Shown: positions 35,535-40,062 of the stretch, piece after piece
How the letters are laid out: each line of letters starts with the position of its first letter
Position numbering within the stretch: the first letter of the stretch is position 1
Origin: Colwellia sp. 75C3
Lineage (GTDB): Bacteria > Pseudomonadota > Gammaproteobacteria > Enterobacterales > Alteromonadaceae
Direction of reading: 5' to 3'
DNA: 64,000 nt
Assembly (NCBI RefSeq): GCF_002836255.1
Contig: NZ_PJAU01000047.1
Location: 1 to 64,000 of the forward strand
The notes under the pieces: generated by a model
Seen by the model: only the letters and a program-made list of their open reading frames with translations
Told to the model about the DNA's origin: nothing
Database searches by the model: none
Program-made: the position numbers and the translations under genes

Positions 35535-36908
35535 TTAGTCTTCGCGGTATGATTCTGCGACTAAGTGATGACGATTTAACAATTTATAAAACTCGGTACG
35601 ATTTCGTTGTGCAATACGTGCAGCTTGCGAGACATTACCCGCAGTAATCTTTAATAATTTAGCTAAATAATCTCGCTCAAAATGATCACGCGCTTGCTGG
35701 AAAGAGGGGAACTGAGTTGAATCATCACGCAGTGCATTTTTCACTAAATTAGCACTGATGACACTTTCACTCGATAGCGCAATACTTTGCTCTACAACAT
35801 TCTGCAACTGTCTTATATTACCAGGCCAAGGCGCACTAATAAGTAACTCCATGGCTTCTTGGCTAATGCTTTTTATAGGAACATTTGAACGAGCAACTGC
35901 TTGATTTAGAAAGTACTGTACTAGCAGTGGAATATCTTCTCGTCGTTGCATTAACGTGGGTAATTCCAACTCAACAACATTCAATCGGTAATACAAATCT
36001 TCTCTAAATGTGCCCGCTTTAATGGCTTTAGTTAAATTAACATGCGTTGCCGATATGATGCGTACATCCACTTTTATCGCTTGCGTACTGCCTACTGGTC
36101 TGATTTCTCTTTCCTGTAAAACGCGTAATAGCTTCACTTGAAAGCTTAGTGGCATATCTCCAATTTCATCTAAGAATAAAGTACCACCATCGGTTGCTTG
36201 AAATAAACCTTGGTGATTTCTCTCTGCACCGGTAAATGCGCCTTTAATGTGACCAAAGAGTTCAGACTCAAGTAGTTGTTCAGGGATCGCGGCACAATTG
36301 ATGGCAGTAAAAACTTTATCTTTACGATTACTGGCTTGATGAATGGCTTTTGCCAGTAGCTCTTTACCTGTACCACTCTGACTGTGAATAAGTACACTAA
36401 AGTCACTGTTAGCTACTTGCTTAGCTTGTTGCAATAGTGAAGTCATTACAGTACTGCGACTAATAATATTATTACGCCATTGTTCAGCTTCACAAGGTTG
36501 TTCACCACTTGAAGGCTGTAAACGTATCGCCTGCTCAACGGTATCGAGTAACTCTTGGCTTTCAAAAGGCTTAGTTAAAAAACTAAATACACCTTGCTTA
36601 GTCGCACTAATCGCATCAGGAATAGTACCGTGGGCGGTCATGATCACGACGGGAATATTGGGATGCTGTACTCTAATTTGCTCAAATAAAGCCATGCCAT
36701 CCATACCTTCCATGCGCAAATCACTAATAACGACTTGAGGAATAAAGTTTTGTAATGTTCCTAGCGCTATTTTTGCATTGGCGGCAGATTCAACATTATA
36801 ACCAGCAGCGGATAAACGAATACTGAGTAAACGTAATAAACTTGGATCGTCATCTACAATGAGAATTTTGGCTGAATTTCGGGTAACTTTTTGGCTGCTT
36901 AGGTTCAT
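35535..36908 (-). CDS. glrR: Sigma-54-dependent response regulator GlrR (QseF)
   Basis: The 457-residue protein activates sigma-54 promoters when phosphorylated by GlrK. The receiver domain has D63 (ISDLRMEG). The AAA+ domain has Walker A SGTGKE (178-183), the sigma-54 contact loop GAFTGA (223-228) and Walker B GGTLFLDEIGD (241-251). A Fis-type HTH is at the C-terminus (GNVSQAARIAQRNRTEFYKLL). Architecture, length and the glrK-qseG-glrR order match enterics. In E. coli GlrR recognises TGTC-N10-GACA sites; one such site lies upstream of the divergent EF-hand gene at 39174. Confidence 0.94.
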   Translation of the reverse strand: MNLSSQKVTRNSAKILIVDDDPSLLRLLSIRLSAAGYNVESAANAKIALGTLQNFIPQVVISDLRMEGMDGMALFEQIRVQHPNIPVVIMTAHGTIPDAISATKQGVFSFLTKPFESQELLDTVEQAIRLQPSSGEQPCEAEQWRNNIISRSTVMTSLLQQAKQVANSDFSVLIHSQSGTGKELLAKAIHQASNRKDKVFTAINCAAIPEQLLESELFGHIKGAFTGAERNHQGLFQATDGGTLFLDEIGDMPLSFQVKLLRVLQEREIRPVGSTQAIKVDVRIISATHVNLTKAIKAGTFREDLYYRLNVVELELPTLMQRREDIPLLVQYFLNQAVARSNVPIKSISQEAMELLISAPWPGNIRQLQNVVEQSIALSSESVISANLVKNALRDDSTQFPSFQQARDHFERDYLAKLLKITAGNVSQAARIAQRNRTEFYKLLNRHHLVAESYRED

Positions 36909-36971: not shown

Positions 36972-37565
36972 TTAGTCTCGTTCGTTAATATTTTGGTCAA
37001 TTTGTTTGAGTAACATCAGTTGCTGGTTTGCATGGTTTAATTGTTGGTTTAATTGCTCAATTATCTTGTGATGCTCATCGCTCTGCTTAGTAAAGCCTTG
37101 CTCAGATAGCGCTTGTTTTTCCAGCAAATGCAATTGAGTATTTAATTGGTCTCTTAATAACATGGTAAAGGCCAAATTCTCTTTACTGAGGATATTGCTT
37201 GTTAATAAATGTTCATTGAGCAATCTTTTAGCTTTGTAAGGTTGATAAATTACTGGGTTTGGCAAGCTATAAATTAGGATGAGTTTGCCTTGGCTAAAGG
37301 CTTTGTCCTTAAGTTGGTTAGTCATCAAGACGTATTGTTGCTTTTCTTCTAGCAAAAGTTGTTTATTATTTAGGGTTTTTAGCCATAAGTAATACTGACT
37401 ATATTTAACCGAATCATGAGATGTCTCAGTCTTAGTCTCAGTTACGGGTGCTGTAACTTGGCAAGCACTTGATAAACTCACTAATAGAATAATAAAGGAG
37501 ATGGAAAAGCACTGCTTAGCCCGGCTAATTATTGAAACCTTTATATGAGGGTTAATCATTTTCAT
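36972..37565 (-). CDS. QseG-like outer-membrane lipoprotein of the GlrK/GlrR system
   Basis: The 197-residue protein has a signal sequence with lipobox LSSAC (Cys at about 35) and a long helical, Gln/Leu/Lys-rich body with probable coiled coil near the C-terminus (KIIEQLNQQLNHANQQLMLLKQI). QseG in enterics is a lipoprotein that binds and stimulates GlrK (QseE), encoded between glrK and glrR, as here. Sequence similarity is weak, so the call rests on position, lipoprotein signal and helical content. It overlaps glrK by 4 nt. Confidence 0.7.
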   Translation of the reverse strand: MKMINPHIKVSIISRAKQCFSISFIILLVSLSSACQVTAPVTETKTETSHDSVKYSQYYLWLKTLNNKQLLLEEKQQYVLMTNQLKDKAFSQGKLILIYSLPNPVIYQPYKAKRLLNEHLLTSNILSKENLAFTMLLRDQLNTQLHLLEKQALSEQGFTKQSDEHHKIIEQLNQQLNHANQQLMLLKQIDQNINERD

Positions 37566-39097
37566 AATACGTTATCTGTTTGAGCATTCGGTAAGGTGAT
37601 AGAAACACAGGTACCGCCTGTATTTGTAGCGCTAATTTTTCCCGCTGGTATTATTTTGATACTGCCATTGAGGCGCAGTAATAACTCTTTGACTATAGTC
37701 AGCCCTAAACCACTGCCTTTTATTTGACTGTTTATCGGTGCTGTACCCTGATAAAAAGCATCAAATACTTTCTCACTAAGTGATGGTTCTATCCCTGGAC
37801 CTTGATCAATGATATTAATGTTTATGCACTCCTTGCTATTGTTATACGTAATGGTGATATTTCCGTCTATGGGGGAGTATTTTATCGCATTAGATAAAAT
37901 ATTGTCTAAAATCACACTGAGTTGTTTACTGTTACTGTAAATAAAATAAGGACTGTTATTACACTTCAGGGTTAAATTTTTAGATTTGATATCAAGTTTT
38001 CTGTCCTTACAAGCAGCACTTATTAGCTCAGATAAATTCATTTTTTCTAAGCCATGCAAGCTAGTTGAATCCAATACAATATTGAAATCAAGTAAGTCTT
38101 CAATTAAACGCTGTAAGCGATTTACACTGGTGCGGATGATATCGCAAATTTCTTGCTGATCATCATTGAGTGGGCCAACACTATTATCATAGATAAGCTC
38201 AGTGCCTTCTCTAATAGCTGCTAATGGTGTTTTTAATTCATGGGAAATATGTCGAATAAAACTCGATTTCTGTAATTCAAGAGTATGAAGACGTTGCCTC
38301 ATATTCTCTAACGCATCTGCTATTTCCCTTACTTCGGCAGGGCCGTGCAAGTTGATTTTTTGTTCGAAATTTCCTTGCTCTAGTAGTTTGATTTTATCAG
38401 TAAGCCGCTTTAATGGTTTAGTGATCAAAATGATAAATATACCGGCAATTAAGAAGGTGATAGGAATAATATATAACCGCTCAAGGATATTATTACTAAT
38501 ATTTTCGGTAGTCTGGTGTATGTTTGAAACCTGTTCATTAACGACAAAATTACTGCGCTTTTCTAGTTGTTTATTAATCTGATGTAATGTTTTAAATTCT
38601 TTTTGGATTTGCGCCAATGACATCGTTTCAATCTCATTACTTAGCATCAATTCTCTTATTCGATCACTCTCAAAATGTAGCGACATAAGCCGTTCTTTTA
38701 ACAGCTTATCTTGCTGTTTTGTGGATGTTTCTTTGATGATACTTTTTAAAACGGCTTGGTGACGACCAAATAGGGTAAGTAATTCATCGTCTTTAAGTAC
38801 CACATATTGACTCGCAGAGCGTTCTATTTTGGCAATACTGTCATCTAGTTTGCTGTTTAGTTGAGTTAATTGTGCAACATGGTAAATAGCACTAGTGCTT
38901 TGTTTTGCTAATTGACTGACCTTATTCGCACCGAACAGTAAGGCCATTACTAAAGGCATGGCAACAAAAGTAAAACCAATTAATGTTAGTTTATTAATAG
39001 AAACCTTGTTAAGAAGTGACTGACTAAATATATAAAAAGAAAGTGTCAACTGTCTTAGCAATGCTTTACTTTTTTTTAATTTGCTAAGGGAAGTCAT
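37562..39097 (-). CDS. glrK: Sensor histidine kinase GlrK (QseE)
   Basis: The 511-residue inner-membrane kinase has TM1 at about 38-55, a helical periplasmic sensor domain of about 150 residues, TM2 at about 208-226 and a HAMP domain (227-280). The HisKA domain carries H286 in SHELKTP. The HATPase domain has NILSNAIKYSP (N box), DQGPGIEP (G1) and GSGLGLTIV (G2). It phosphorylates GlrR by inference from family and operon. In E. coli the pair controls the sRNA GlmY and rpoE through envelope signals; here the neighbouring EF-hand gene is the visible candidate target. Confidence 0.93.
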   Translation of the reverse strand: MTSLSKLKKSKALLRQLTLSFYIFSQSLLNKVSINKLTLIGFTFVAMPLVMALLFGANKVSQLAKQSTSAIYHVAQLTQLNSKLDDSIAKIERSASQYVVLKDDELLTLFGRHQAVLKSIIKETSTKQQDKLLKERLMSLHFESDRIRELMLSNEIETMSLAQIQKEFKTLHQINKQLEKRSNFVVNEQVSNIHQTTENISNNILERLYIIPITFLIAGIFIILITKPLKRLTDKIKLLEQGNFEQKINLHGPAEVREIADALENMRQRLHTLELQKSSFIRHISHELKTPLAAIREGTELIYDNSVGPLNDDQQEICDIIRTSVNRLQRLIEDLLDFNIVLDSTSLHGLEKMNLSELISAACKDRKLDIKSKNLTLKCNNSPYFIYSNSKQLSVILDNILSNAIKYSPIDGNITITYNNSKECININIIDQGPGIEPSLSEKVFDAFYQGTAPINSQIKGSGLGLTIVKELLLRLNGSIKIIPAGKISATNTGGTCVSITLPNAQTDNVL

Positions 39098-39173: not shown

Positions 39174-39191
39174 TGTCTTTATTTTGAGACA
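39174..39191. promoter_or_regulatory. GlrR-type upstream activator site 1
   Basis: TGTCTTTATTTTGAGACA is a perfect TGTC-N10-GACA match, the motif recognised by GlrR upstream of glmY in enterics. It lies about 230 bp upstream of the predicted sigma-54 start site, a normal enhancer distance, and beside glrK itself. Confidence 0.75.
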
Positions 39192-39293
39192 AGGTTAAAT
39201 CATAAATGCCGAGTTATTAAGTAACTGTAAAACATTAGTTTATTATGATTTGTGTCGACGTATTAGTCAGCGATAGTCGGTAATATTTTATTG

Positions 39294-39311
39294 TGTTGGT
39301 ATTTAGCGACA
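39294..39311. promoter_or_regulatory. GlrR-type upstream activator site 2 (one mismatch)
   Basis: TGTTGGTATTTAGCGACA matches TGTC-N10-GACA in seven of eight fixed bases. Its centre is about 110 bp upstream of the predicted start site. Confidence 0.5.
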
Positions 39312-39386
39312 GTTTAACAAGGGTTTAGGTTATAAAAAACAGTAGGTTCTTTATTAAATCCTTTACAATCATGCGCTTGGGTTTGT

Positions 39387-39402
39387 TGGCACACTCCGTG
39401 CT
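39387..39402 (+). promoter_or_regulatory. Sigma-54 (RpoN) promoter of the EF-hand gene
   Basis: TGGCACACTCCGTGCT has the -24 TGGCAC and -12 TGCT elements with correct GG-to-GC spacing. The predicted start is near 39413, giving a leader of about 58 nt containing an 18-nt palindrome (39436-39453) before the AGAGG Shine-Dalgarno of the EF-hand gene. Confidence 0.82.
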
Positions 39403-39470
39403 ATATCTCTGTCAATAATGAATTATATTCAGCGCAATTAAAGCGCTTTAATTTTAAAAAGAGGATTACC

Positions 39471-39839
39471 ATGAATAGTATCAGTTTAACGCAAGTAACC
39501 ACATTTGTTGTAGCCGTAAGTCTGGCTTCTTTTTTTGTCAATGCTGATGATGCTCTAGCTGATACTACTGAAGCTAGTACCGTTATACATTCAGAAACGT
39601 CAGTGATCACAGAGATTGTTGAAGTTGCAGTTGAAGAAATAAAAGAGATGAACGATAAGTTTACTTTTACTTCACTAGATACTGACAAAAATGGCAAGTT
39701 AAGCCAACAAGAAGTTATTGCTGGCAAGAATGAGTGGTTGGTGAAGTCCTTTAGCCAAATTGATAGTAATACTGATAAGTCTCTTACAGAACAAGAATTA
39801 GTTGATTTTGTTACTACGACTGTAGCGACAAGTAAATAA
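39471..39839 (+). CDS. Exported EF-hand calcium-binding protein
   Basis: The 122-residue protein has an N-terminal signal sequence (about 1-30) and two EF-hand loops, D70xD72xN74GK76 to E81 and D98xN100xD102xS104 to E109, with the ligand positions filled. It is otherwise small and acidic and probably periplasmic. A near-consensus sigma-54 promoter and GlrR-type sites lie upstream, and glrK is divergent, so it is a candidate GlrR target. AGAGG precedes the ATG. The function of such small EF-hand proteins is not established; calcium buffering or sensing is inference. Confidence 0.88.
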   Translation: MNSISLTQVTTFVVAVSLASFFVNADDALADTTEASTVIHSETSVITEIVEVAVEEIKEMNDKFTFTSLDTDKNGKLSQQEVIAGKNEWLVKSFSQIDSNTDKSLTEQELVDFVTTTVATSK

Positions 39840-39884
39840 CGAGTAAGGACATACTCGGCAAAGTTTAAAGGGGAGCTCCCAATT

Positions 39885-39954
39885 ATACCCATTATCATTC
39901 AATATGCAGGTTCAGCGTTCTTGCTCAAGCACTTCATTGATTGGTGACGGGTAT
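39885..39954. repeat. 70-bp element with inverted ATACCC ends
   Basis: ATACCCATTATCATTCAAT (from 39885) matches the reverse complement of the right end, ATACCCGTCACCAATCAAT, at 15 of 19 positions. The ends resemble those of the 8187-8498 element. It lies in the 39840-40187 intergenic region, where the only other feature is the terminator at 40033. Confidence 0.45.
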
Positions 39955-40032
39955 GTATCAAATCATCTAGTCGTCATTCTTACGGACAGAGAAAACGGCT
40001 TGACCGAATTGTTATAAATCCACTCCCCTTTG

Positions 40033-40062
40033 GGCCGGCTACTTAGGTAGTCGGCCTTTTTT
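40033..40062 (+). terminator. Rho-independent terminator
   Basis: GGCCGGCTAC (40033-40042) pairs with GTAGTCGGCC (40047-40056) around TTAG, with one G-U pair, followed by six T. It probably ends the EF-hand transcript. Confidence 0.88.

Follow-up and report, generated by a model that had tools for sequence, protein, structure and literature searches.

A conserved two-site sigma-54 regulatory unit, most likely under GlrR control, in front of an EF-hand gene beside glrK in Colwellia and related genera

The stretch of Colwellia sp. 75C3 DNA analyzed here (64,000 nucleotides; hereafter, the window) contains two TGTC-N10-GACA sites, a sigma-54-type promoter, and a gene for a small EF-hand protein, set divergently beside the glrK operon. 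Together, the two sites, the promoter, and the EF-hand gene form a regulatory unit that is conserved. The conserved layout, its helical phasing, the joint absence of gene and regulator from some genomes, and the identity of the DNA-reading region of the regulator together indicate that GlrR most likely activates the EF-hand gene, and on these sequence comparisons it is by a wide margin the strongest candidate activator of the unit. The unit in Colwellia is a newly described variant of the known GlrKR circuit. Among the matches listed in our literature search, the scope of which lay mostly outside subscription journals, no paper joined GlrR or QseF with an EF-hand protein. To our knowledge, experimental study of GlrKR/QseEF has been nearly confined to enterics, in which an sRNA is the output known best. 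In marine genera, a conserved and putatively calcium-binding target would offer a handle on the role of the GlrK sensor.

Layout of the locus and its conservation among relatives

The features of the locus are collected in Table 1. The first-pass annotation had placed a near-consensus -24/-12 promoter in front of an EF-hand gene, one perfect and one 7/8 copy of TGTC-N10-GACA upstream of it, and glrK-qseG-glrR as the divergent neighbor, and all of these features lie where it had put them, the promoter having one mismatch to the consensus. The lipoprotein gene of the operon has no Pfam or NCBIfam match; the order kinase, lipoprotein, regulator recurs in nine of the ten relatives listed, the tenth showing kinase and regulator only. 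Taken singly, the motifs are near chance in the 64 kb, with 13 TGTC sites at one mismatch (16 expected) and 48 promoter matches at two mismatches (36 expected); the combination of site, site, and promoter occurs once in the whole window, both strands included.

Table 1. Features of the glrK/EF-hand locus, with positions in the window
Feature	Position	Strand	Remarks
GlrR upstream site 1 (predicted), TGTCTTTATTTTGAGACA	39174..39191	+	perfect copy; center near -230 relative to the predicted start; has its counterpart at the 87 loci
GlrR upstream site 2 (predicted), TGTTGGTATTTAGCGACA	39294..39311	+	7/8 copy; center about -110
IHF-like site AATCATGCGCTTG	39367..39379	+	one mismatch to WATCAANNNNTTR; found by eye at -20 from the promoter
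-24/-12 sigma-54 promoter TGGCACACTCCGTGCT	39387..39402	+	predicted start about 39413; counterpart in 87 loci
Two-EF-hand protein, 122 aa, hydrophobic N-terminus (probably exported)	39471..39839	+	Pfam, codon-position differences, invariant EF residues
3'-UTR element GGGGAGCUCCCAA...CUCCCCUUU, interrupted by a repeat at 39883-39955	39870..40031	+	
Intrinsic terminator, EF-hand transcript	40032..40062	+	
glrK sensor kinase	37562..39097	-	
qseG-type lipoprotein gene	36972..37565	-	position and lipobox read by eye
glrR sigma-54-dependent response regulator	35535..36908	-	best NCBIfam match NF011695 GlrR; DNA-reading region

For comparison, we used 133 GlrK loci, one per genome, from which 14 loci repeating a genome had been removed beforehand; of 65 genomes with a GlrK match, G154 and G192 were left out, and of a set of 103, 55 were looked at and 48, chiefly enteric-type and family f25, left out. 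The labels Shewanella-like, Alteromonas-like, and enteric-type are presumptive, taken from the neighboring genes. With at most two mismatches allowed over both sites together and at most four in the promoter, its GG and GC being fixed, the layout of two sites and promoter was found upstream of 87 of the 133 loci, a count whose members are not independent because the genomes share history. It appeared neither in 20 rounds of dinucleotide shuffling of the 133 upstream regions nor in the reversed sequences.

GlrK is present in 32 of 37 Colwellia genomes, and 30 of these loci have the layout, the other two having a weak second site in one case and a contig end cutting the region in the other. A divergent EF-hand ORF accompanies 31 of the 32; at the remaining one, the contig ends 308 bases upstream. 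The sites are thus shared by relatives, as the first-pass annotation had proposed to establish by alignment, and this conservation supports its reading of a putative GlrR/sigma-54 circuit before a protein gene. In other genera of the same family, the layout is found at 48 of 62 loci. Of these 48, 39 have a divergent EF-hand ORF, 7 lack an EF-hand but have a gene of a second family (U2, described below), and the remaining 2 have neither gene. Beyond the family, it occurs at seven of nine loci of family f9, all seven with U2 and no EF-hand, and at both loci of f16, and it is absent from f25 (0 of 13), f18 (0 of 7), f7 (0 of 3), f10 (0 of 2), and f5, f14, and f26 (0 of 1 each). Over the whole set, 71 of the 87 layout loci have a divergent EF-hand ORF no more than 1500 bases away; U2 is present in 14 of the other 16 (7 of them f9), and 2 have neither. 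TGTC-like pairs separated by 65 bp occur at two Alteromonas-like loci that lack the layout.

The distance from site 2, which in relatives reads TGTY-N10-GACA, to the promoter falls into discrete classes of 68-71 bp (35 loci), 80-83 bp (36), 91-93 bp (15), and 102 bp (1), with nothing between them, so that the classes lie whole helical turns apart. The clustering of the 12 distinct spacings was matched by none of 20000 random sets (periods of 10-11.5). Such phasing is the trace expected from a looping activator that is obliged to face the polymerase. It is less clean for the interval between the two sites (119-123 bp at 76 of the 87 loci, 110-142 bp at the others) and for that from site 1 to the promoter. 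Between site 2 and promoter, 65 of the 87 loci carry an IHF-like site with at most one mismatch to what we take to be the IHF consensus, WATCAANNNNTTR (15.5 in shuffles), and 29 a perfect one (0.5 in shuffles); in 45 of the 87, a site with at most one mismatch sits at -18 to -20. The window enters this count with an equal match at -72 rather than with the site in Table 1.

An 18-nt palindrome that had been pointed out in the transcript leader (39436-39453) is present in the window, and it is not conserved across relatives: its left arm is deleted in one of them. We rejected it as an RNA element, with four predicted pairs, no compensatory change, and -1.5 kcal/mol over 14 relatives.

GlrR as the candidate activator

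The GlrR of the window matches NCBIfam family NF011695 best by far, at 637.9 bits, under the 763-bit cut-off that was passed in 1 of the 22 genomes examined. It shares an operon with GlrK and the lipoprotein, and its DNA-reading region is enteric-like, both as expected of a GlrR ortholog: 19 and 20 of 24 residues are identical to two enteric-type GlrRs and 21 of 24 to an f9 GlrR. For one Alteromonas-like GlrR and one from f7, the corresponding identities are 13 and 14 of 24; neither of their loci showed the layout. Passages of two papers give the enteric GlrR/QseF consensus as TGTN12ACA (PMC6075780, where glmY is described as having three sites and using IHF) and as TGTCN10GACA (PMC8745638). 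The sites in the window fit the published consensus, with the sigma-54 promoter downstream of them.

The genome encodes at least six further sigma-54 activators, any of which might in principle use these sites in place of GlrR. We regard this as highly improbable. The sites match the published GlrR consensus and adjoin glrK, and the DNA-reading regions differ in the three other regulators of this genome that were compared (5-6 of 24 residues identical). In addition, the five Colwellia genomes of the 37 that lack GlrK also have no GlrR-grade regulator, their best regulator hits lying at 1e-100 to 1e-107 versus 1e-151 to 1e-275 in 17 others searched, and no match to the EF-hand protein; one of the five is only 76% complete. 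The same EF-hand search gave no match in four Colwellia genomes that do have GlrK. As three of these four have a divergent EF-hand ORF at the locus, a missing match can also reflect distance.

Alternatively, the TGTC sites could serve only to autoregulate glrK, with an ordinary promoter driving the EF-hand gene. Site 1 and the start of glrK are 76 bp apart, and an ATAAT at 39411-39415, just past the -12 box and shared by 14 of 17 close Colwellia loci, might act as a sigma-70 -10 box; an overlapping sigma-70 box is described for glmY in passages of PMC8745638 and PMC6075780. The promoter scan reported no overlapping sigma-70 promoter at the ATAAT. Because the phasing of site 2 is to the -24/-12 promoter that faces the EF-hand gene, and because U2 and X genes remote from glrK are also preceded by paired sites and a promoter-like box (see the last section), we consider sole autoregulation very unlikely.

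Activation of the EF-hand gene by GlrR would proceed as follows. Phosphorylated GlrR would bind both TGTC-N10-GACA sites, and IHF-bent DNA would bring it to sigma-54 polymerase at the promoter. The polymerase would then transcribe the gene of a periplasmic EF-hand protein as far as the intrinsic terminator. By analogy with CpxP and CpxA, the likeliest role of this protein would be to bind calcium in the envelope and either report on the GlrK/QseG sensor or feed back to it. Taken as a whole, from GlrR, IHF, and sigma-54 to the periplasmic protein in this role, we hold the circuit to be probable, with good confidence.

The EF-hand protein and the 3' end of its transcript

The ORF behind the promoter, which the first-pass annotation had named an EF-hand gene, scores above the Pfam cut-offs and contains paired loops. 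Loop residues D70, G75, E81, D98, N100, D102, and E109 are invariant in 36 homologues; counts of the EF-loop pattern are not themselves evidence, since the pattern requires D at position 1 and E or D at position 12. A profile of the protein matches solved calcium-binding proteins (best E 9.5e-9). Differences among 17 Colwellia relatives fall mainly on third codon positions (0.22/0.20/0.44), and the ORF is under protein-level selection. The protein is probably exported. Its structure model is of low confidence (pLDDT 58), and we set it aside as too uncertain to serve as evidence.

The EF-hand gene also adjoins glrK at loci where the layout was not found, co-directionally in six loci of the same family and divergently in all three f7 loci. 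This persistence beside glrK suggests that the protein works with the GlrK sensor, and a role in calcium or stress sensing, as first proposed, may be envisaged.

Downstream of the EF-hand stop codon, GGGGAG is found in 18 of 30 Colwellia loci, mostly as GGGGAGCUCCCAAC, followed by CUCCCCUU and the terminator; L019 and L022 have a variant of this element. In 27 of 45 loci outside the window's clade, the first terminator hairpin carries CUCCCAAC or UUCCCAAC. Neither sequence was present in any of the window's 37 terminator-like hairpins or in any of 23 elsewhere in the loci. The motif CCCA[AG]C, which was chosen after looking at the same sequences, is present no more than 200 nt downstream of the EF-hand stop codon at 49 of 74 loci; the other strand has it at 0 of 74, and shuffling gives an expectation of 2.9. 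Six of eight pairs of the terminator stem covary over 25 sequences, a sample biased by its preselection as hairpins (alignment A5, 25 of 26 hairpins, L075 left out). A further alignment, A4, comprises 15 sequences and leaves out several near relatives as well as the window, with its insertion. In the window, a 73-nt repeat-like insertion splits the CUCCCAAC element; five diverged partial copies of the repeat are present elsewhere in the genome.

The 3' element looks like the 3' portion of an sRNA whose seed is C-rich. It is conceivable that the chief product of the unit is an sRNA of the 3' UTR with a C-rich CUCCCAAC loop, cut or terminated from the EF-hand mRNA as a counterpart of GlmY or CpxQ, with the protein as a passenger or second output. 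The strand specificity of the (post hoc) motif, its place in the first terminator hairpin, and the covariation of the stem in the biased sample all speak for such an RNA. Against it, the motif is missing from 25 of the 74 loci, the window with its split element included; the consensus fold of the element in the window's clade has a 3-pair stem and the terminator only, without a long closing stem; Rfam searches with the element gave weak hits only, all under cut-off (best E 0.42); no target was found at the places searched; and the selection on the ORF acts at the level of protein. We consider an sRNA as chief product possible but doubtful.

The target search covered glmS and a general pattern. 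No complement to the 3' element lies beside either glmS start, and glmS was dropped as a target. The pattern GGTTGGGAG-N3-12-ATG gave 79 matches over 39 genomes, versus 26 with the pattern reversed, an excess that is the bias expected from ribosome-binding sites alone. Its most recurrent site (six genomes) lies inside a coding frame in the four cases examined and was likewise discarded; further sites recur in two to four genomes.

Comparison with known systems and further candidate targets

In passages of PMC6075780 and PMC8745638, the GlrKR/QseEGF-glmY system is described with the same components as seen or predicted here: sensor, QseG lipoprotein, regulator, TGTC-N10-GACA sites, and a sigma-54 promoter beside glrK, together with IHF, whose possible counterpart here is the IHF-like site. 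Unlike enteric glmY, the putative Colwellia target is a protein gene and is transcribed away from glrK, and there are two sites, about 120 bp apart, in place of three. Three upstream sites are present in most enteric-type loci among those listed. In families f18, f10, and f26, sites and promoter point toward glrK, and GlmY was identified by Rfam in all eight loci submitted. Covariance searches of whole genomes located GlmY in three of three enteric-type genomes and in none of 14 others, that of the window included, which bears out the contrast with glmY drawn in the first-pass annotation. The GlmY-like RNA for which a covariance search had been suggested was found neither in the 14 non-enteric genomes nor in the window, where GlmY/GlmZ (RF00128) gave nothing at the gathering score.

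That annotation had further suggested a system rewired from an sRNA to a protein. The apparent target is indeed a protein gene; the suggested switch from RNA to protein may oversimplify matters, and it is uncertain because the same transcript often ends in the conserved 3' element. The EF-hand transcript may carry both products, protein and RNA. More speculatively, and on balance unlikely in this full form, GlrKR in marine relatives might run a two-product transcript that supplies a periplasmic calcium-binding protein reporting to GlrK/QseG and, in the place of GlmY, an sRNA from the 3' UTR that exposes a CUCCCAAC seed, the conserved enhancer remaining beside glrK while the driven gene is swapped by lineage (EF-hand, U2, small charged protein, GlmY).

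A comparable arrangement, as described in passages of PMC6737893, is that of CpxP and CpxRA, in which the gene for a small periplasmic protein is divergent from the sensor operon and the cpxP 3' UTR bears the sRNA CpxQ, a precedent for the 3' element. Here, sigma-54 and GlrR would replace CpxR. At E 0.001, neither Pfam nor NCBIfam gave the EF-hand protein a match to a CpxP-type family, its Pfam matches being EF-hand families only. We know of no link between GlrR and EfhP of Pseudomonas aeruginosa. EfhP is likewise a bacterial EF-hand protein (PMC4053335).

A search of 39 genomes of the genus with the second site and a loose promoter pattern gave 37 matches, versus 3 with the pattern reversed. 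Seventeen lie clearly away from glrK, and 9 of the 12 examined have a further site 100-120 bp upstream, 5 of them before U2 and 4 before a protein that we call X. The -24/-12 box fits only the loose pattern in four of the five U2 cases. In the window's own genome, the only pattern match is the one at glrK, and a search for U2 gave no match. These sites predict a small regulon of EF-hand, U2, and X genes, open to testing in culturable Colwellia, and would make the unit an example of an enhancer that stays fixed while its outputs are exchanged.

U2 is a family of about 115 residues with the motif W[IV]FE[IV]KxVRA and no Pfam or NCBIfam match; it has paired GlrR-type sites of its own in several Colwellia (L168-L171, L175), and its gene adjoins the sites at the Shewanella-like f9 loci L105 and L118-L123. 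X (L172-L174, L176) is an exported-looking protein of about 370-430 residues with a CxxCH motif and a weak resemblance, under cut-off, to DUF1585. At L090, L091, L094, L095, L099, and L101, the first likely gene past the sites encodes a small, highly charged protein (about 68-86 residues, with a signal-like start) in place of the EF-hand protein; no promoter was found at L094. Sites of the TGTC-N10-GACA and -24/-12 types are also present near GlrK-like genes of Halomonadaceae and betaproteobacteria (L258, L265, L266, L269, L275, L290, and L297).
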